A stretch of 40,654 nt of DNA, taken from Streptomyces bikiniensis. GTDB taxonomy: Bacteria > Actinomycetota > Actinomycetes > Streptomycetales > Streptomycetaceae. The stretch is taken from positions 1 through 40,654 of the forward strand of contig JNWL01000052.1 in NCBI GenBank assembly GCA_000716465.1, in the 5' to 3' direction. Below, piece by piece: positions 13,970 through 40,560 of this stretch; position 1 is the stretch's first letter; every line of letters begins with the position of its first letter. The notes beneath the pieces are model-generated. The model was not told where the DNA came from and ran no database searches. It saw only the letters and a program-made list of their open reading frames with translations. The translations under genes were made by a program, and so were the position numbers.

Positions 13970-14452
13970 GAGGTCATCCTGCCCGGCTCCTGCGACAGGC
14001 GGTCTCCGGCTACGCCGTCTCACTGAGGAGTTCCCGTGCCATGACGATCCCGGTAGCGGACCTGGGGCTGCAGGGCAGTCCCCGTGACTTTTCCGGAAGG
14101 CCGGCGGCGCCGGGCGGGGTTGGGCAGGACGGGTCTCCCGCCCGCTGGACGTCGATGACGACCGCACGCCGCCGTCCAGCCGCACAACGCTCCAGATCCC
14201 CAGGAATCGTAGGTCCCTTTCGGCACCACCAAACCCGAACGTACCCATCGCAGCCATCCTGAATTTCTCAAACAATCAACACCGGACCAAAACGTCTCAA
14301 CCTTCCTACGTCGCCGCCCTTTCCGAGCTGAGCTTCCCTCAGAGTGCTTGTCTCGAAGGGGTAACGAGAAGGGGGGCAGTGTGTGGGGGTCGTGAGGGCA
14401 TGGTGTGAGGTTTCCCAGGTCAGCACCCTTCGCATAGAGGATCGCGCACCAC
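13970..14452 (+). other. 480-bp region upstream of the Rhs gene, no gene seen
   Basis: No credible gene. It should contain the promoter of the Rhs gene, but no sigma-70-like pair could be assigned with confidence. The stretch near 14260-14345 is noticeably less GC-rich than its surroundings. Confidence 0.3.
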
Positions 14453-17400
14453 GTGAACCACTCCATATCCCGGTCCGGCGGCGCCTCGGCGCCGTCGGAC
14501 CGGCGCTCGGGCGGACGGCTCCGCGCCGTCGCCGCCCTGGCCGTCGCCGCTCTCGCGGCTCAGACGGCCGTGGCCGCTCAGCGGCCGCCGTCCCCGAGAG
14601 CACCCCCGCCGCCGTCATGCCGGCCTTCGGTGCCGCCGAGGCCCAGGAGTCTTCCACCGCGCACCTGTTGGCGCGGCTCCAGAAGCGCGAGATCGAGATC
14701 CTCGACGAGCGCACCGACTCCACCAGCTCGTACGCGCTGCCGGACGGCAGCACGTCGGTGCGCTCGTACACCGGTCCCATCCGGGTCAAGGACGCGGCCG
14801 GCCGCTGGCAGCCCATCGACACCTCGCTCGTGGACACGGGCACGGCCGTCAGGCCCAAGCGGGCCGCGGCCGACGTGACGCTTTCCGACGGCGGCTCCGG
14901 CGAGCCCCTGGTCGAGGTGGCCCGCGGCACGCAGTCGCTCGGCATCGGCTGGGCGGGCGAGCTGCCCGCGCCCGAACTGAGCGGCTCGACCGCCACGTAC
15001 AAGGGTGCCGTCCAGGGCGGCGACCTCGTCGTCACCGCCCTCAAGGAGGGCTTCTCCCACTCCGTCGTCCTCCACGAGAAGCCCAAGGGCCCGGTGGAAT
15101 ACCGGATTCCGGTCGAGGCGAGCGGCCTGACCCTGAAGGAGACCGCCGACAAGCGGCTGCGCTGGGACGACGCCCGGAACAAGGCGAAGGCCACCGCCCC
15201 CGCCCCGGTCATGTGGGACTCCTCCTATGACCGTGCCTCCGGCGACGCCCGGCACATCGCCGCCGTCGACGTACAGGTCGAGAAGGGCAAGGACGGCGAG
15301 GGCCAGGTCCTGGTCCTCAAGCCGGACACGAAGTTCCTCGCGGACCCGAACCTCGTCTACCCGGTGACGATCGACCCGACCGACTCGCTGATGGGTCCGG
15401 TCACCGACACCTGGATCCAGTACGACGACTACCTGACCTCCCAGCGCGGCTCGACCGAACTCAAGGCGGGTACGTACAACGGCGCCGAGAAGGCCCGTTC
15501 CTTCCTGCAGTTCAACGCGGACAAGTACAAGGGCAAGGTGATCACGGACACCGATCTGCGCCTGTACTCGTCCTACTCGTCCACCTGCACCACCACGAAC
15601 TCGGGCAACGAGGTCCGCCGGATTACCGGCGCCTGGGACCCCTCGGCGATCTCCTGGTCCAACCAGCCGGCCACCACCACCGCGGGCGCCGTGGTGAACA
15701 AGGCCGCCAAGGGCTACAGCACGAGCTGCCCGGCCGGTCACGTGTCGTGGGACATCGACGCCATCGTCCAGGCCTGGGCCGACGGGCAGCCGAACCACGG
15801 CGTGCGGCTCGCCGCCGTGGACGAGACCGACGTGCTGACCTGGCGCCGTTACCACTCGGCCAACCAGACCGACGGCTCCCACAACGCCGCGTACGAGCCG
15901 TCCCTCACCGTCACGTACAACACCAAGCCGGGCGCCGCGACGCCGCTCTCCCCGCTGTCGGGCACGTCGACCAACGACACCACGCCGACTCTGACGGGCA
16001 AGGCCACCGACGCCGACGGCAACACCGTCCAGCTCACGTACGAGATCTGGACCCCGACCGGCACCGCCGCCGTGCAGACGGGCAAGTCGGCCTTCGTCGC
16101 CTCCGGCGCCAACGCGCCGTGGACGGCCGCGACCGCGCTGGCGCCCGGCAGCTACAAGTGGCGCGCCGCGGTCCACGACGGCACCAGCTGGAACGGCACC
16201 TGGTCCGCCTGGCAGACCTTCACGGTCGACACCGCCAAGCCGGCCGTCACCGCCGTTTCCTCGGCCGACTTCCCGGCCGGGCAGTGGTCCGGCACGCCGA
16301 ACGCCGACGGCGACTTCACCGGCTCCTTCAGCTTCACCCCGCCCGCCGCCGACGTGAAGGACGTCCAGTACCGGCTCGACTCCGGAGCCTGGATCACCGC
16401 CGCCACCACGGGCGCGGCGGTCTCCAGGTCCCTCGTGTTCAAGGCGGGCGCGCACACCCTGACCGCGCACACCCGTGACGCGGCGGGCAACGTGTCGGCC
16501 GACACCGTGTACTCCTTCTCCGCAGGCAAGGGCGCGGCCCTGGTCTCCCCGGCCGAGGGCGACCGCCCGGCCCGCCGGGTGACGCTGGCGTCCGAGGGCC
16601 GCACCACCTACACGGGCGTGCGCTACCAGTACCGGCACGGCGAGGCCGACGCCTGGAAGGACGTGCCCGTCGCCGACGTGCGCCGTTCCCTCGACGGCGC
16701 CACGGTCGGCGCCTGGCCGCTCGCCGTGACCGGCGGGAAGCCGGCGTCCCTGTACTGGAACATCACCGCCACCCTGGCCAACGACGGCCCCGTGGACATC
16801 CGCGCGGTGTTCGGCGGAGGCACCACCACCGACGCCTCCCCCGAGGCCGAGGTCGTCGTCGACCGCAACGCGGGCGAGGCGCCGACCGCACAGGTCGGCC
16901 CCGGTTCGGTGAACCTGCTGACCGGTGACTACAAGCTGAGCGCCAAGGACGTCCAGGCGTTCGACGTGGCGGTCAACCGCGCCGCCTCCTCGCGCGCCAA
17001 CCCCGACGACTCGGAGGGGCAGTCGGCCATCTTCGGTCCCGGTTGGGTCTCCTCCGTCAGCGCCGAGACCTCTGGCAGCGGCTACACGCAGCTGCGGAAG
17101 ACGTCGGCGACCTCCGTGGAGATCCTCGACGCCGACGGCGGTTCCACCGCCTTCACCGCCAAGGCGGGCGGCGGCTGGGAACCCGAGGCGGGGGCCGGCA
17201 CGCTGACCCTGACCGGCTCGCTCACCGGTGACACCTTCACCCTGAAGGACACCGACGCGACGGTCACCGTCTTCGCGAAGGCGGGTACGGGCGCCACCAC
17301 CTGGACGCTCGCGACCTCCGCCGCCGCCGTGGACGACTCGACGGTCGCCGTCGTCTCCGAGACCGTCACCCAGAACTCCGCGACGGTCGTCCGTCCGAGG

Positions 17401-20400
17401 TACCTCATCTCCCCCACCGAGGCCGTCCCGGCCGCGACCTGCCAGGCCGCGCCGTCCACCAAGGGCTGCCGGGTCGTCGAGTTCGTCTACGCGACGGCCA
17501 CCACGGCCACCGGCTGGTCGACGGCCGCCGACTTCGGTGACATCGCGGGCCAGGTCAAGGAGATCAAGCTGTGGGCCACCGACCCCGGTGCCGCCTCCGC
17601 CCGGGACGAAGTCCTCTCCCGCTACCGCTACGACAAGTCCGGGCGGCTGCGCCAGCAGTGGAACCCGCACTACTCGCAGGCCACGCAGGTCCAGTACTCG
17701 TACGACGCGGCCGGCCGTGTCTTCTGGATGATGCCGGGCACCGAGCAGCCGTGGAACTTCCACTACGGCAAGGCCGGTTCGTCCCTCACCACCGGTGAGG
17801 GCATGCTCCTCAAGGTGACCCGCCCGACCCTGAAGCAGGGCACGGTCGGCACCGCGGAGTCCACCGCGACCAGCACCGTCGTCTACGACGTCCCGCTGAC
17901 CGGCGCAGCCGCGCCGCGCACGATGGACCGGGCCACGGTCGGCGCCTGGGCGCAGAACGAGGTCCCCACCGACGCGACGGCCGTCTTCCCCGCCGACTCC
18001 GTTCCGGCCTCCTCCACCGGAGCCGACCTCGCCGCAGGCGGTTACGGCCGCGCCTCGGTCACCTACATCGACGCCAACGGGCGCGAGACGAACACGGCCA
18101 CACCCGGCGGCGGTCTGACCACCACCGAGTACGACGCCTTCGGCAACGAGGTGTCCTCGCTGTCCGCCGCCAACCGCGACCTCGCCCTCGGCACCGGTCC
18201 GGACGCGGCCGACCGGCTCTCCGCCCTCGGCATCGCGGGCCTGAGCACCGCCGAGCGGGCCGAGCGGCTCTCCGCCTCCACGGTGTACTCCACCGACGGC
18301 CAGCGGGTGCTGCACTCCTACGGCCCCCTCCACCTGGTCTCCCTCGCGGGACCGGTCGCGGCCTCCGGCGCCAACCCGGGCCTGCCGGCCGGCGCGCTCG
18401 TCCCCGCCCGCGAGCACATGGCCAACAAGCACGACGAGGGCCGTCCGGCCGACGCCGCCGTGTCCGGTCTGCCCACCTCCTCGGTCACGGGCGCCTCGAT
18501 CGAGGGCTACCCCCAGGACGCCGACACCCGGACCACGGTCACCACCTACAACTGGACCACCGGCGAGGACCTGCTCACCCGGGACGCCGATGGCAACCAG
18601 CTGAGCAACACCCGTTCCACGTACCGCGCGGACGGCAAGCTGGCCACCACCAGTCTCCCCGCCTCGAACGGCACCGACGCCGGCACCCTGACCTATACGT
18701 ACTGGACCGCCGGCGGCACCGGAGCGTGCGCCGGACGCCCGGAATGGGCCGGCCTGCTGTGCCGGACCGAGCCCGCGGGCAAGGTCACGGGCGGCACGCC
18801 CGCCGACGCGCCCACCACCGCGTACACGTACAACCGCTGGGGCGGCGTGGCCACCACCACCCGCACCGCCAACGGCGCCACGCTGACCAGCACCGTCGTC
18901 TACGACGACGCCGGCCGGCGCGCCCGGACGAGCTCGACCGGCGGTCCGGGCACGCCCGTGCCGGAGACCGTGTTCACCTACGACCCGGAGACCGGGAAGA
19001 CGACGGGCCAGACGTCCGGCGGGAAAACGATCTCCTACCGGTACGACACCCTCGGCCGTCTCGTCTCGTACCAGGACGGGGCGGGGAATACCGCCACCAC
19101 CGAGTACGACCTGCTGGACCGGCCGGTGAAGTCGGCCGACTCCACCGGGGCCGGCACCACCTACGGATACGACGCCGCAGGCCGGCTGGCCACGCTCACC
19201 GACTCCGCAGCGGGCACCTTCACGGCCGGCTACGACGCCGACGGCCGGCTGGTCACCCAGGCGATGCCGGGCGGCTACCGGCTGAAGGTGACCACCGACC
19301 CGGCCGACCGGACGACGGCCCGCGAGTACACCGACGCCGCCGGCACCACCGTCCTCGCCGACATCGCCGAGCACCGCGTCAACGGCCGCATGGCCGGCCA
19401 CAGCCAGACCGACGGCACCGGCGTCTCCACCGACCTCGTCTACGACGCGGCCGGACGGCTGACCGGCGCCACCGACACCTCCGCGGCAGGGTGCGCGGCC
19501 CGCGCCTACGGCTTCGACGCCAACAGCAACCGGACGTCGAAGTCCACGACCCGGGACGACTGCGACGCGGCCACCGCGGACGCGGCCGTCACCACCGAGT
19601 CGTACACGTACGACAGCGCGGACCGGCTGACCGGCTCCGGCCGGACGTACGACGCCTTCGGCCGTGCCACCACCGACGGCACCGCCACGCTGGAGTACTT
19701 CACCGGTGACCTGCTGCGGTCGGAGACCGTCGGCACGCAGCGCCGCGTCTGGGACCTCGACGCCGCGAGCCGGCCCGCCGTGGCCACGACCTGGACCCAG
19801 GGGCAGGACGGCGTGTGGAACGCCGTCGGAACCGTCACCCAGCACTTCGGCGACGACTCCTCGAACCCCGACTGGGCGGCGCACTCCGACGGCACGGTCA
19901 CCCGTTTCGTCAACGACCTCGCCGGCGGACTCGGCGCGATCACCGGCCCCGGCGGCGGCGTCGTGCTCCAGCTGGCCAACCTGCACGGGGACATCGCGGT
20001 CCAGCTCGACCTGACCACCCCCGCCGGCACGTCGGTCCAGCACTACGACGAGTACGGGCTCCCGACCGAGGACACCCGCGCGGCCGGCTACGGCTGGCTC
20101 GGCTCCACCCAGGTCTCCAGCGAGACCCTCAGCGGCCGGGTCCTGACCGGCGCACGCGTCTACGACCCCGCCACCGGCCGCTTCCTCCAGGCCGACCCGA
20201 AATACGCGGGCGGCAAGAACGCCTACGTCTACTGCGGCGGCGACCCGGTCGGCTGCAGCGACACCAGCGGCCTTGCCGACTATTACCGCTACTACGACCT
20301 GGGCAAGACCGGCGCGTCGGACAAGTCCGTCTTCAATTACTGGAAGAGCCACTTCAAGGACGTCTTCCCGATCCCCGGCCGCCCGAACAAGATCACCCGG

Positions 20401-20703
20401 GAAGGACAGGACTTCACCCTCCGGCCCGTCGTGCTCAGCTACTCGTGGTACTTCCCCGTGAACGTCAACAGCATCGGCAAGAGCTACCTCCAGCTCGGCG
20501 CCCGCTTCGGGCACCCCGACTGGCCCGGCGGCTGGGTCGGCTTCGACCTCTACAAGAAGAAGGGCCGGATGAAACTGGAGATCCGCGGTCACCTCGGCGG
20601 TGGCGCGGCAGTCCTCGGCCGGAGTTTCAACGAGGCGATGGCGAAGAAGTACTGGGACAAGCTGGGCGGCAACCTGCGGAAGGTCGTCCGCGACAGGTTC
20701 TGA
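14453..20703 (+). CDS. Secreted Rhs/YD-repeat polymorphic-toxin-like protein, frameshift in signal peptide
   Basis: A giant protein of about 2,080 residues. GTG 14453 opens a good signal peptide (RLRAVAALAVAALAAQTAVA), but the body is in the next frame, joining near 14575-14585 as AAAVPESTPAAVMPAF. As given, signal and body are separated by a frameshift. In the body frame there follow a DNRLRE-type adhesive module (about 15385-15910, with SFLQFNADKYKG and AISWSNQP), Ig/fibronectin-like segments (15920-16870), a long array of YD repeats (17600-19900; for example YDAAGRVFW, YDTLGRLVSY, YDAAGRLATL) and the Rhs core. The core reads LANLHGDIAVQLDL, YDEYGLPTE, then ARVYDPATGRFLQADPKYA. A hallmark NAYVYCGGDP...DTSGL ends the shell at 20274. 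The last 143 residues are a separate unrecognised tip. A membrane protein gene follows at 20939. Confidence 0.88.
20275..20703 (+). other. Variable C-terminal tip domain of the Rhs protein (candidate toxin)
   Basis: This sub-region lies after the conserved Rhs core ending in DTSGL. Its 142 residues begin ADYYRYYDLGKTGASDKSVF, contain KSHFKDVFPIPGRPNKITRE, WYFPVNVNSIGKSYLQLGAR and GFDLYKKKGRMKLEIRGHLG, and end KVVRDRF. It is rich in aromatic and basic residues and has no cysteine, no HNH, no ADP-ribosyl or deaminase motif and no membrane helix. In Rhs systems this position carries the exchangeable effector. No known toxin family is recognised. Confidence 0.6.
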
Positions 20704-20758
20704 CCCGGACCGGCCCGGAGAAGCCCCCACGGGGCACCCGGGCCGACTCCGCGGGGCA

Positions 20759-20800
20759 GATCCCCGCGCGGCTCGTCCACGGGCGAGACGCGCGGGGATC
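20759..20800 (+). terminator. Strong hairpin after the Rhs gene
   Basis: GATCCCCGCGC (20759-20769) pairs perfectly with GCGCGGGGATC (20790-20800), and an inner CTCG/CGAG can extend it. No T-run. Likely terminator separating the Rhs transcript from the next gene. Confidence 0.65.
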
Positions 20801-20846
20801 GCCCCGCGGGTGAGGCCCGCGGGTGAGCCCCCGGGTCGACATATCG

Positions 20847-20862
20847 ATTGAACATGTTCAAT
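20847..20862. promoter_or_regulatory. Perfect 16-bp palindrome upstream of the small membrane protein
   Basis: ATTGAACATGTTCAAT is perfectly palindromic and AT-rich in a GC-rich context. It is 77 bases upstream of the ATG at 20939 and beyond the Rhs terminator. It looks like a dimeric repressor operator, suggesting that the downstream gene has its own regulated promoter. Confidence 0.55.
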
Positions 20863-20938
20863 AATGATGGCCGGTGGGTCCGCGTCCTGAACACGGGGCG
20901 CGGGCCCACCGTGCATCCGGCACCCGCGAGGAGGACCC

Positions 20939-21292
20939 ATGAACTCCGGCCCCACCCCATCCACCGGCCGCAAGCGCCGCACCGGATGCGTCCTCGCGAT
21001 CGGTTACACCGGCCTCGTCGCGGTCGCCGGACTCGTCCGCGCCTTCACCGGAGCCCGGCCCGACGGCTTCCTCGACCTCCTGCACCTGTCGACCTTCCCC
21101 GGCTCGGTCCTGGTCACCGTCGGGCTCCTGTACCCGCTCGCGCTCCTCGACACGGAGACCGACCCGGACCCGGACGCCACCGGCAATCCCTTCGCCTCCG
21201 CCGCCCTCGTCACCGCCGGCGCGGCCGTCAACGTCCTTCTGGTGTACGGCGCGGTCCGCCTGACCCGAACCCTGCGCCGCGCCCACCGCTGA
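20939..21292 (+). CDS. Small three-helix membrane protein, candidate Rhs immunity protein
   Basis: A 117-residue protein with three hydrophobic segments: about 15-37 (CVLAIGYTGLVAVAGLVRAF), 50-71 (LSTFPGSVLVTVGLLYPLAL) and 86-109 (ASAALVTAGAAVNVLLVYGA). A short acidic loop (DTETDPDPDATG) lies before helix 3, and the N- and C-termini are basic. ATG 20939 is preceded by GAGGAGG. It is the first gene after the Rhs C-terminal tip on the same strand, the position of immunity genes in polymorphic toxin loci. The hairpin and the 16-bp palindrome between them argue for separate expression, which an immunity gene would need. It loosely resembles small Streptomyces membrane proteins of the SCO4225 kind. 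The immunity role is inference. Confidence 0.7.
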   Translation: MNSGPTPSTGRKRRTGCVLAIGYTGLVAVAGLVRAFTGARPDGFLDLLHLSTFPGSVLVTVGLLYPLALLDTETDPDPDATGNPFASAALVTAGAAVNVLLVYGAVRLTRTLRRAHR

Positions 21293-21377
21293 CCACCCCG
21301 GCCGACCCTCGGGCAGACGCGCCGGCCGAACGCCGCGGGGACGCGCGCCCTGCGTCCTGACAGCCAGCCCGGCCCTC

Positions 21378-36812: not shown

Positions 36813-37478
36813 TCAGCCGGACAGCGGCCGGCGGGGTGGTGGTACGGCCCGCAGCAGTTCCCACAGGGGCTTGGAGCCGCCGGCCCAGGTGCCGAGCAGG
36901 GTGCGGTCGACCAGGTGCAGCCGTTGGGAGTGGGCGAAGTCGAGGGCGGGTTTGGAGAATCTGCCGTTGGTGACGAGGACGACGATGTCGCCTCCGTGTA
37001 CGGGGCGGCCGGTGCCGTTGAGTACCTGCAGGTCCGGGCTGCCCACGGCTGCTCCGGACAGGCCGTTCTTCCTGTGCTTGCACTGGATCACCCAGCGCCG
37101 CCCGTAGGGGTCGGTGGCCTTCACGTCCGCGCCGTTGTCCCCGGCACCGCCGACCTGCACCGCGTCCACGCACCCGTCGCGCTGCATCAGATCCCGTACC
37201 GCGTGCTCGAACTGCCGGTGGTGCAGCGCGTCCAGCTGCGCCAGCGCATACCGCAGTCCCTGCAGGCGCACCCGCTCCCACCGCGCGGCCCGCTGCCTGC
37301 CGACCACCCAGAGGGCCACCGCCCCGCCGACGCCGAGCACCAGGACGACGGGGATCCAGGGGTGCGCGCGTACGAAGTCCACGATCGCCGCGATCACAGA
37401 TCCCGCGATGATCAGAGCACCGAGGGCCAGCAGGAGCTGCTCGCTGCCGTCGGCCTTCCTGGAGCGTCGCCGTCTCAC
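36813..37478 (-). CDS. Membrane-anchored Mrr-like restriction endonuclease
   Basis: A 221-residue protein starting at GTG 37478, which overlaps the TGA of the upstream gene (GTGA) and has GGAGG nearby. Residues 14-33 and 41-60 are two membrane helices. Residues 88-190 are a PD-(D/E)XK domain of the Mrr_cat type: FEHAVRDLMQRDG with E91, then GGAGDNGADVKATD with D118, then VIQCKHRKNG with Q132-x-K134, ending with VTNGRFSKPALDFAHS. Mrr enzymes cut modified DNA; membrane-anchored versions occur in actinobacterial plasmids and islands, possibly acting on incoming DNA. Target unknown. It is the last gene of a two-gene coupled operon. Confidence 0.85.
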   Translation of the reverse strand: MRRRRSRKADGSEQLLLALGALIIAGSVIAAIVDFVRAHPWIPVVLVLGVGGAVALWVVGRQRAARWERVRLQGLRYALAQLDALHHRQFEHAVRDLMQRDGCVDAVQVGGAGDNGADVKATDPYGRRWVIQCKHRKNGLSGAAVGSPDLQVLNGTGRPVHGGDIVVLVTNGRFSKPALDFAHSQRLHLVDRTLLGTWAGGSKPLWELLRAVPPPRRPLSG

Positions 37479-37852
37479 CGCTCGCCTCCGCTGCGGTCCC
37501 ACTTGATCGGGTAGGACACCGTCGGCACCGGACGCGGTGCGGTCTGCTTCCACCCGGGCCACCGGATCGGATACGACACGGTCGGCGTCGGCACCGGAGC
37601 CTTACGGGGCGCGGGCTTCTCCCGGCCCGGCCATTTGATCGGATACGTCACGCCAGACGAGGACCACGGCGCCGGTAACCGTTCCCCGCCGCCCGGTGTG
37701 CTGCCTGTCGTCGTGCCGGAGCTGCCGAAGACGAACACGGCTGCCACGATCCCGATGGCCAGCACGGTCTGCTTGTGCGTTCCGGCCGGCGCTCTCCAGT
37801 GCGCCCGCACCGGTGTTCCGTCCTGCTTGGTGTATCCCCTGATAAACGGCAA
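37475..37852 (-). CDS. Single-pass membrane protein with YPIKWPG repeats and an N-terminal DGT-VRAH-R motif
   Basis: A 125-residue protein. The N-terminus MPFIRGYTKQDGTPVRAHWR resembles the repeated motif in the gene at 38213-38566. A membrane helix follows (TVLAIGIVAAVFVFGSSG, about 29-46). The rest is probably extracytoplasmic and carries three copies of a short repeat: VTYPIKWPGRE, VSYPIRWPGWK and VSYPIKWDRSG, separated by Pro-rich spacers. No family is recognised. The stop overlaps the Mrr-like start by four bases, so the two are co-translated. A strong inverted repeat lies just upstream at 37871-37903. Confidence 0.65.
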   Translation of the reverse strand: MPFIRGYTKQDGTPVRAHWRAPAGTHKQTVLAIGIVAAVFVFGSSGTTTGSTPGGGERLPAPWSSSGVTYPIKWPGREKPAPRKAPVPTPTVSYPIRWPGWKQTAPRPVPTVSYPIKWDRSGGER

Positions 37853-38736: not shown

Positions 38737-39636
38737 AGAGCTCGTAACGCGATCATGATCGAGCCTTCTTGAGTCTTCTCCAGCAGATGAGACTGCAGGC
38801 GAGGGAGACGAAGGTGTCGTGGAGTTCGGTGCGGCGTTCCCAGCGGACGGCGAGGCGTTTGAACTGGTGGAGCAGGGCGAAGGTCTGCTCGACAACATAG
38901 CGGAGCTTGCCCAGGCCCTCGATGTTCTGGGCGCCTCTGCGGGAGATGACCGGGAGGATCCGGCGCTTGCGGAGTTCGCGCCGGTTGGGGTGGGAGTCGT
39001 AGCCCTTGTCGCCGAGGAGGGACTGAGGGCGTCGGCGGGGCCGCCCTGGGCGGCCGGCGACGGGAGGGATGCCGTCGATCAGGGCGAGGGTCTGGGTGAC
39101 GTCGTTGACGTTGGCGGCGGCGGTGATGACCGTCAGCGGGGTGCCGCGTCCGTCGCAGATCAGGTGGTGCTTGCTGCCCGTCTTCAGCCGGTCGACCGGC
39201 GACGGACCGGTGTCAGCTCCCCTTTTTCGCGCGGACGTGGGAGCCGTCGACGCACGCTCTGGACCAGTCCAACTCGCCGGCCGCGTCTATTTCGGCGAGC
39301 AGGACCCGGTGCAGCCGGTCGAAGACCCCGGCCTTCTGCCACCGCCCCAGGCGCTGCCAGCAGGTCTGCCCGGAGCCGAACCCCAGTTCCAGGGGCAGCA
39401 GTTGCCAGGCTACGTCGTTGTGCAGCACGTACAGGATGCCCTGCAGGCGCATCCGGTCCGGCACCGGCCGGGGGCCGGGAGCCTTCTCGGGCCAGGGCGG
39501 CAGCAGCGGCTCGATCAGCGCCCACAGGTCATCGTCCACGATCCACGGCCGGGTACTCGCACCATCCCGAACGGCCGAATCATCACACCGGTCACGGCCG
39601 ACCACGGACGTTCAACAAGATCGTGTTACGAGCTCT
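38737..39636 (-). mobile_element. IS5-family (IS427-type) insertion sequence, apparently intact
   Basis: An element of 900 bp. AGAGCTCGTAAC starts the left end and its reverse complement closes the right end, with two or three mismatches over the next bases. The transposase, on the minus strand, has the two-frame layout of the IS427 group. The element is different from the one at 6073-6950. Confidence 0.8.
38753..39605 (-). CDS. IS5-family transposase made by frameshift (two reading frames)
   Basis: The first frame runs from 39605 to 39213: WALIEPLLPPWPEKAPG, LQGILYVLHNDVAWQLLPLE, CVDGSHVRAKKGS. At the A5G4 run (39219-39227) the protein moves one base forward into the second frame, GADTGPSPVDRLKTGSKHHL, GDKGYDSHPNRRELRKRR, VVEQTFALLHQFKRLAVR, ending LKKARS at 38753. 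The DDE residues are the D of VDGSH, the D of GDKGYD and the E of VVEQ; all are present. This is the usual arrangement of the group, where a programmed shift yields active transposase. The split at a slippery run is what is expected, so the element may still be functional. Confidence 0.85.
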
Positions 39637-39642
39637 ACGAAC

Positions 39643-39662
39643 CTCATTCTGAAACGATCAGT
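39643..39662. repeat. Solo terminal repeat of the IS element type at 6073-6950
   Basis: CTCATTCTGAAACGATCAGT is the exact reverse complement of the left end at 6073-6092. No matching second end or transposase of this type is nearby. It is wedged between two other insertion sequences. Confidence 0.7.
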
Positions 39663-40560
39663 GAGCCTCTTTCATCCTGTGCTGGAGGGTGAAATGGGCT
39701 GGTCAGCAGGTGTGGTGACGAGGCAGGGCCCCTCGTCGTTGGCGTGGTGATCTCACTCAACACGCTGGCGACCGAAGGGGCCCTGGTGGTTCCGTATCCT
39801 GCCATGCTCGACGTCCCGCACGAGCTGGTCGAGCACGTTGCCCGGCTGCTCCACGAGCATCGCCAAGCCCGCAACACCCGCTGGCGCAAGCTCGGATGCT
39901 TCAAACAGGCTCTGCTCACGCTGGTCCATCTGCGGAAGAACGAGACGTTCTCCCAGCTCGGAGCCAGTTTCGGGATATCGCAGGCCACCGCCTGGTGGTA
40001 CGTCGACGAGACTCTGGACGTCCTGGCCGGCTGGGCTCCCGGCCTCCACGAAGCGCTCACCGGCCTTGGTGAAGGCGACTACGTCATCGTTGACGGCACG
40101 CTGATCCCCATCGACCGCATCCGTGCGGACGAGCCGTATTACTCGATGAAGCACCGCCGGCACGGCATGAACGTGCAGGTCATCGCCCATCCTGACGGCA
40201 CACCTCTGTGGTTCTCGCGTGCGACACCGGGCCGCACCCATGATCTGGCCGCAGCCCGGGCCCACGGGATCGTGCAGGCCTGTCTGACGCGGCAGATCCT
40301 TGTCCTGGCGGACCGCGCCTACCAGGGCGCCGGCGCCACCGTCCGCACCTCGTACAAAAACCACCGCGAACAGCCCGATCACTACCAGCAGTTCAACCGC
40401 GACCACGCCCGACTCAGAGCTCCCGGCGAACGCGCCTTCGCACAGCTCAAATCCTGGCGGATCCTCCGCCGGGCCCGATGCTCCACCCGCCGCATCAGCA
40501 CCATCGTCCAAGCCATCCACACCCTGATGACCTGCAACTATTCAGGATGAAAGAGGCTCA
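39662..40560 (+). mobile_element. IS5-like insertion sequence with DDE_Tnp_4 transposase, intact
   Basis: An element of 899 bp with perfect 18-bp terminal inverted repeats, TGAGCCTCTTTCATCCTG at 39662-39679 and its reverse complement at 40543-40560. One complete transposase gene on the plus strand. Its left end abuts the solo repeat at 39643-39662. Confidence 0.88.
39744..40550 (+). CDS. IS5-like transposase (HTH_Tnp_4 + DDE_Tnp_4)
   Basis: A 268-residue transposase. The N-terminal helix-turn-helix (ETFSQLGASFGISQATAWWY) is followed by the DDE domain: YVIVDGTLIPIDRI (first D), ILVLADRAYQGAGATV (second D) and RAPGERAFAQLKSW (E). GMNVQVIAHPDGTPLWFS and TPGRTHDLAAARAHG are family signatures. 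All catalytic residues are present. GTG 39744, or the next codon GTG 39747, is the start. It is a distant relative of the fragments at 11510-11715 and 13304-13595, but not the same element. Confidence 0.92.
   Translation: MVISLNTLATEGALVVPYPAMLDVPHELVEHVARLLHEHRQARNTRWRKLGCFKQALLTLVHLRKNETFSQLGASFGISQATAWWYVDETLDVLAGWAPGLHEALTGLGEGDYVIVDGTLIPIDRIRADEPYYSMKHRRHGMNVQVIAHPDGTPLWFSRATPGRTHDLAAARAHGIVQACLTRQILVLADRAYQGAGATVRTSYKNHREQPDHYQQFNRDHARLRAPGERAFAQLKSWRILRRARCSTRRISTIVQAIHTLMTCNYSG

Follow-up and report, generated by a model that had tools for sequence, protein, structure and literature searches.

The stretch of DNA analysed here, hereafter the window, comprises 40,654 nucleotides (nt) of Streptomyces bikiniensis (contig JNWL01000052.1), whose draft genome (G000) spans 7.39 Mb in 163 contigs. 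It carries a gene for a large Rhs protein (P0001) ending in a C-terminal tip, followed by a gene for a small membrane protein (P0002; Table 1). A preliminary description of the window had proposed the two as a new toxin-immunity pair. P0001 shows the hallmark of Rhs polymorphic toxins, namely YD/RHS repeats followed by an Rhs-associated core (PF05593, TIGR01643, TIGR03696). The core ends with the residues DTSGL at position 20274, exactly the tip border of the preliminary description, whose coordinates were right. The next gene was also correctly described as encoding a small membrane protein with its own ribosome site: the product of 117 amino acids (aa) has three hydrophobic stretches in a Kyte-Doolittle scan, and GAGGAGGA precedes the ATG at 20939. 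The tip stop and this start are 236 bp apart and thus close without adjoining. Transmembrane (TM) counts given below come from the same kind of scan, not from a trained predictor, and genes were called with a codon-usage caller trained on these loci.

The tip had been described as unrecognised, and by sequence this holds. Searched alone and with E values up to 10 allowed, it had no match in Pfam, NCBIfam, PHROGs or PADLOC, with the caveat that the HMMER filters drop most weak matches, and no match in viral contigs, plasmids or phages. Comparison with PDB sequences gave nothing better than E 0.3 (a BamA), which we took as chance, and a viral structure library contributed one match at E 1e-3 or better, which is unnamed. 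By predicted fold the tip is not unrecognised. Structure prediction yielded a START/Bet v 1-like helix-grip domain, in which a beta sheet grips a long C-terminal helix (b-aa-bbbbb-a) as the START/helix-grip superfamily requires. The fold was predicted from two separate alignments, one of the tip and one of a solitary secreted relative. The likeness to the START, Bet v 1, PYR-PYL and aromatase-cyclase proteins extends across the whole tip, while identity in the matches listed is 4–14%. The tip is basic (isoelectric point 10, net charge +13), and the predicted fold and charge agree with an action at the membrane.

Searching with the tip returned 11 other proteins, all of them Streptomyces Rhs proteins of 2015–2111 aa with tips 65–94% identical to that of the window. 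Including P0001 these form class A (12 proteins), which belongs to a tip cluster of 25 proteins, T1, together with class B (3 proteins; L035, L036 and L038), whose tips are 29–36% identical to the window tip, and class C (10 proteins). A gene of the same membrane family as P0002, termed F1, follows the tip on the same strand in all seven readable class A loci (window, L031, L032, L033, L034, L056 and L059). Flanking DNA is common to L033 and L059 alone (E 1e-20), and the seven loci thus represent six neighbourhoods. As the tip is carried by 11 further proteins and the membrane gene follows in 7/7 class A loci, the association is more than chance. Class B tips are followed by a gene of another membrane family, F7, in 3/3 loci. 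In class C a third membrane family (111–119 aa, three TM stretches) begins 4–10 bp past the tip stop in 4/4 Rhs loci (L102, L128, L129 and L130). Small multi-TM genes are otherwise rare at the loci: 15 of 328 called genes encode 90–160 aa with at least two TM stretches, and 13 of these 15 are F1 or F7. Tip and membrane gene differ jointly between classes A, B and C, but within class A all cores belong to a single lineage.

A control scan treated all groups alike and recorded any frame of 60–220 aa with at least two TM stretches that starts within 350 nt past the stop. Such a frame was found at all 14 Rhs loci of classes A to C (class A 7/7, being the five search loci plus L056 and L059; class B 3/3; class C 4/4). 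A partial class C locus, L131 (own frame of 162 aa, counted apart), has a membrane frame of 144 aa from a TTG. A profile of all tip forms gave 45 matches in 44 of 392 genomes. Eleven are in frames longer than 2000 aa (five class A, three class B, one class C and two weak) and 34 in frames of 187–643 aa. The two weak ones (L124:8243-8683, E 2.9e-8; L125:8316-8750, E 8.7e-8) end Rhs proteins of 2343 and 2318 aa, and the scan detected a membrane frame after neither. After the solitary START-like proteins it detected none at 26 loci, equivalent to 24 distinct places (L132 = L116, L136 = L123). By linkage, the membrane gene is a candidate immunity gene: each Rhs-borne class has a membrane gene of its own (14/14 loci) and the solitary places have none (0/24). 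Against this stands the occurrence of F1 in other places, described below.

The solitary proteins and class A are linked by profile comparison (E 3.2e-14). The 21 that we read are small, and most have a signal-peptide-like start as judged by eye. Several share neighbours and therefore look vertically inherited. None of the 33 proteins listed by a search with the solitary form was given a Pfam domain, and a scan of five solitary relatives found a peptidoglycan-binding domain (PF01471, E 1.2e-11) in one. These loci (L037, L039–L042, L099, L103, L105–L123) thus represent a solitary, secreted START-like family of Streptomyces that has no Pfam family. Since such secreted forms exist without a linked membrane gene, it does not follow that the START-like domain harms the cell producing it. 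Over 13 aligned rows that include classes A, B and C and solitary proteins, Tyr3 is the only invariant polar residue; His80 is absent from class B.

To evaluate the tip as an exchangeable module, we compared tips with the cores that carry them. A search with core residues 1465–1964, in which only the 7986 candidates sharing most words were scored, identified 747 proteins with E values of 1e-60 or better. The best 120 of these 747, together with P0001, P0014 and the three class B loci, make up a set of 125 Rhs proteins, the tips of which fall into 23 clusters at E 1e-4. On a core tree built from the last 700 residues, 25 tip labels (cluster T1 being split into A, B and C) require 38 changes, the least possible number being 24. 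Clusters T2, T3, T4, T9 and class C need 4–7 changes each, whereas class A (12) and class B (3) each form one clade. The 38 changes for 25 labels show that tips have been exchanged in this Rhs family. The tip as an exchangeable module is thus supported by 23 tip clusters on related cores, but class A has stayed on a single core lineage. A recent swap of class A tips was considered for P0011, P0013 and P0014, whose cores are 46–51% and whose tips are 66–75% identical to those of the window. We did not retain it: slower change of the tip explains the pattern equally well, because all 12 class A proteins form one clade. That the tip might be a conserved shell segment, present in all orthologues, was likewise rejected, as the class A tip occurs in 5 of 392 genomes and the core in 71 of 295 at E 1e-20. 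The genus-wide tip search gave 13 matches, five of class A and eight that are only 28–38% identical. Among Rhs loci outside class A, 12 of 27 have a called TM gene (40–203 aa) no more than 250 bp away on the same strand; membrane partners in this Rhs family are common, not universal. Numerous other Rhs tips without a name, which are basic or contain a hydrophobic stretch, were noted at L064–L089; by the same limits of strand and distance, 11 of the 26 loci have a called TM gene (45–203 aa).

The Rhs gene had been called complete. Repeats and core are indeed present, but the window copy has its export signal in another reading frame than the body. When the N-terminus of the L031 relative was compared with the window by tblastn, its residues 1–21 matched 14453–14515 in frame 2 and its residues 44–200 matched 14581–15051 in frame 1, the frame of the Rhs body from 14581 onwards. 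In relatives such as L031 the N-terminus is signal-peptide-like, as judged by eye, and copies with a continuous frame exist. Judging from the sequence, the break in the window may be either a real lesion or an assembly error, both of which would look alike.

Family F1 extends beyond the class A loci. We found 17 matches in 16 of 392 genomes: five beside a class A tip, one beside an Rhs remnant and 11 elsewhere. A wide occurrence of the membrane gene without Rhs, named beforehand as evidence against the pairing, is thus in part what we see, six of the 17 matches being next to a class A tip or the remnant. Three of the matches away from class A tips lie beside what we take to be a truA-like gene and two beside a presumed nadE-like gene. 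By analogy, the copies elsewhere may be orphan immunity genes, or F1 may be a family with a life of its own; orphan immunity genes have been reported in other systems. Six of 12 F1 members match PF25637 (DUF7942) weakly at E up to 0.1 (best 1.6e-5), as do all three F7 members (best 5.8e-5); P0002 scores 21.6 bits, below the Pfam gathering cut-off of 26.7, and the first F7 row is also below the cut-off. NF046119 (SCO4225 family) is weakly matched by 1/12 F1 (7e-5) and 1/3 F7 members (0.0057). Class C partners have no DUF7942 match. These similarities hint that F1 and F7 were recruited from the small DUF7942 membrane family, members of which occur in 133 of 246 Streptomyces genomes. None of the best 30 DUF7942 loci has an Rhs core within 1.5 kb. 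Homology among F1, F7 and the class C partners was tried and dropped, profile comparisons of F1/F7, F1/C and F7/C finding none, and the weak DUF7942 match is the sole link between F1 and F7. The literature searched held nothing on the SCO4225 family.

The membrane gene has a leader of its own. The operator- or promoter-like palindrome TTGAACATGTTCAA upstream of it is the only such site in the window at up to two mismatches, where 0.01 are expected. Its YYGAACNNGTTCRR form is located 36–158 bp upstream of the matched stretch in 15 of the 17 F1 matches across the genus, orphans included. The long loci contain 22 palindrome-type sites in 591,332 bases, F1 sites included. A GC-rich hairpin follows; the fold of 20840–20940 has −52.7 kcal/mol and a z of −4.37. 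In ten aligned leaders the hairpin has 14 consensus pairs, two of which are changed on both sides, and the covariation term is only −0.64. At L049 the start codon is right behind the palindrome and there is no such hairpin. We read palindrome and leader as a putative regulated promoter of the candidate immunity gene. The source genome has five sites of the RY form, distributed over three places; apart from the leader itself, these are two tandem pairs (L095:5904-5961 and L096:5806-5859). The former lies ∼1 kb from what is presumably a TetR-like gene (L095:6939-7676).

A block of 7.3 kb is common to the window and an otherwise unrelated site of the nearest relative (G076, L031). It is 96.4% identical over 7295 columns (blastn, L031 5296–12573) and contains the Rhs gene, the intergenic region and the membrane gene. 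Beyond the block no match at E 1e-20 was found between the window and 20 kb of L031, and the borders have no shared repeat of 10 bases or more. As read from this comparison, Rhs gene, leader and membrane gene move as one block. For the other five class A loci the DNA match with the window stops at the tip end. Non-synonymous divergence (dN) of the membrane gene exceeds that of the tip in three of four usable pairs, L032/L034 being left out: 0.188 vs 0.065 for L033/L059, 0.672 vs 0.187 for window/L033 and 0.444 vs 0.155 for window/L032. Genome G100 has an intact F1 gene preceded by a truncated Rhs frame (128 aa as called, 196 aa open) that retains parts of a class A tip. By analogy, block movement, a faster membrane gene and such a remnant are habits of effector-immunity pairs.

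Table 1. Features of the Rhs locus, in window coordinates.
Feature	Position	Strand	Basis and remarks
Block common to the window and an otherwise unrelated site of the nearest relative	14081..21350	+	Rhs gene, intergenic region and membrane gene
Rhs/YD-repeat open reading frame	14383..20703	+	2106 aa from GTG 14383; RHS_repeat and YD_repeat matches (PF05593, TIGR01643)
Signal-peptide-like stretch (judged by eye)	14453..14515	+	Frame 2, off-frame to the Rhs body
DNRLRE domain	15403..15915	+	NF033679, P0001 residues 341–511, E 2.6e-30
Rhs_assc_core, end of shell	20044..20274	+	TIGR03696, residues 1888–1964, E 6.6e-13
C-terminal tip, class A, predicted START-like helix-grip fold	20275..20703	+	142 aa; stop included, coding 20275–20700
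Palindrome TTGAACATGTTCAA, operator- or promoter-like	20848..20861	.	14 bp, upstream of the membrane gene
GC-rich hairpin in the membrane-gene leader	20866..20917	+	Inner stem 20872–20911; fold of 20840–20940
Candidate immunity protein P0002, family F1	20939..21292	+	117 aa, three TM stretches (Kyte-Doolittle scan)

Elsewhere in the window, a frame of 2134 codons is open opposite the Rhs gene (minus strand, 14578–20982), most likely a by-product of the high GC content. The minus strand also encodes a protein with an Mrr-type restriction endonuclease domain (36813–37562; PF04471, E 9.1e-22), and two insertion sequence (IS)-type transposase frames lie close to the window end (39213–40550; PF13340, PF13359). 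Scans for Rfam families (gathering scores) and tRNAs detected nothing in the window. The source genome contains a second Rhs core, 42% identical (L097, G000:C94), the tip of which is cut off by the contig end.

The locus shares the repeat shell, the Rhs core, the variable C-terminal tip and the linked small gene with the Rhs/YD-repeat polymorphic toxins, going by the available part of their description (Zhang et al., 2012; PMC3482391). It differs from them in its carrier, which is of the DNRLRE type and has a signal-peptide-like start in relatives. The first 300,000 characters of the main text of that article do not contain START, Bet v, SRPBCC or helix-grip as whole words. A START-domain-like helix-grip toxin on Cystatin-like/lipobox carriers has already been published (eLife 2025, PMC12419801); in the available part of that article the immunity proteins are TM proteins or lipoproteins, including one 4-TM core for another toxin type. 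Compared by description only, the published system has a Cystatin-like carrier and, as its most widespread immunity protein, a BamE-like one, whereas the present one has an Rhs/DNRLRE carrier and predicted three-helix partners. P0001 has no cystatin match in Pfam or NCBIfam at E up to 10 and matches DNRLRE, YD/RHS repeats and Ig-like domains instead. Among the DUF7942 (PF25637) and SCO4225 (NF046119) membrane proteins that F1 and F7 weakly resemble, the best 30 DUF7942 loci are not near Rhs cores. The literature searched contained no Rhs toxin with SRPBCC and no bacterial Bet v 1 toxin with an immunity protein. The idea of a START-like toxin is thus already in print; the present sequence family, carrier, partners and leader were not found in the literature searched.

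Three elements are evident from the sequence: an Rhs carrier of the DNRLRE/YD-repeat type, a C-terminal domain that is exchangeable, and a linked gene, with a leader of its own, for a three-helix membrane protein. The best reading is that the locus is a Streptomyces polymorphic toxin-immunity pair with a START-like tip, which we consider on balance probable. The Rhs shell, exported via the signal peptide in relatives, would hold the basic tip and carry it to a cell nearby. Acting outside the cytoplasm, the tip would bind, shield or extract an anionic or isoprenoid envelope lipid; neither nucleic acid nor protein would be its target. The fold and charge of the tip, its secreted relatives and a partner located in the membrane lead us to infer this action on a lipid. 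The linked membrane protein would block the tip at the producer's membrane, and its own promoter region would allow orphan copies to persist without the toxin. Several observations weigh against this reading. A START-like fold is no proof of lipid binding, and the solitary secreted proteins, the commonest form of the domain, have no linked guard. The membrane linkage drops to 14 of 16 Rhs-borne matches if L124 and L125, which have no membrane partner frame, are counted, and no class A tip is near 11 of the 17 F1 matches. In class A, tip and membrane gene lie about 130–236 bp apart by likely starts and so do not form a tight operon; for window/L031, the closest pair, the dN of the membrane gene (0.021) does not exceed that of the tip (0.025). 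Class A tips form one core clade, a recent swap of the class A pair not being demonstrated, and the signal peptide of the window Rhs is out of frame. On recheck, the control with solitary proteins spoke for the toxin-immunity reading and the two weak Rhs matches against it, and our estimate was left unchanged. More tentatively, and with some doubt, one may think of a non-enzymatic class of antibacterial toxins, in which Streptomyces would have placed a secreted START-fold lipid binder on Rhs shells in at least three forms and made a weapon of its capture of lipid in the neighbour's envelope, with a separate multi-helix membrane immunity protein for each form.

The solitary proteins, the two Rhs proteins that lack a membrane gene, the F1 copies that occur alone with the same palindrome and the DUF7942 relatives away from Rhs cores would all fit a tip that is not a weapon. 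In that case it would serve a secreted Rhs protein as a module that binds lipid or the cell wall at the surface, with the membrane gene as an independently regulated passenger. We regard this as unlikely, given that 14/14 class A to C Rhs loci have a membrane gene, of a different family in each class, that related cores carry 23 tip clusters and that a toxin remnant lies upstream of an intact membrane gene in G100. An enzymatic toxin on a START-like scaffold, modifying a small molecule or a lipid head group, has parallels in the aromatase/cyclases and lachrymatory factor synthase; with Tyr3 as the sole invariant polar residue and His80 missing from class B, we find it less probable still. For the window copy itself, signal peptide and body in different frames, as well as the orphan membrane genes and the Rhs remnant elsewhere, raise the possibility of a local relic, in which export of the Rhs protein has ceased and the membrane gene alone has been retained, as an orphan immunity gene. 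Nevertheless, the body still has a long open frame, a relative whose frame is continuous matches its DNA at 96% identity, and an error in the draft assembly would give the same picture, which leaves a relic conceivable and somewhat doubtful; it would be compatible with the toxin-immunity reading at the level of the family.

Taken together, the analysis assigns a predicted fold to a toxin tip that is unnamed in four family libraries and suggests envelope lipids as a type of target that can be tested. The comparison also indicates that the DNRLRE-Rhs proteins of Streptomyces, a large family, serve as polymorphic carriers, and that most of their many unnamed tips are basic. If toxicity and protection hold true, the antibacterial effectors of Gram-positive soil bacteria would come to include a START fold that binds lipid, accompanied by a regulatory leader and several candidate immunity proteins to test.

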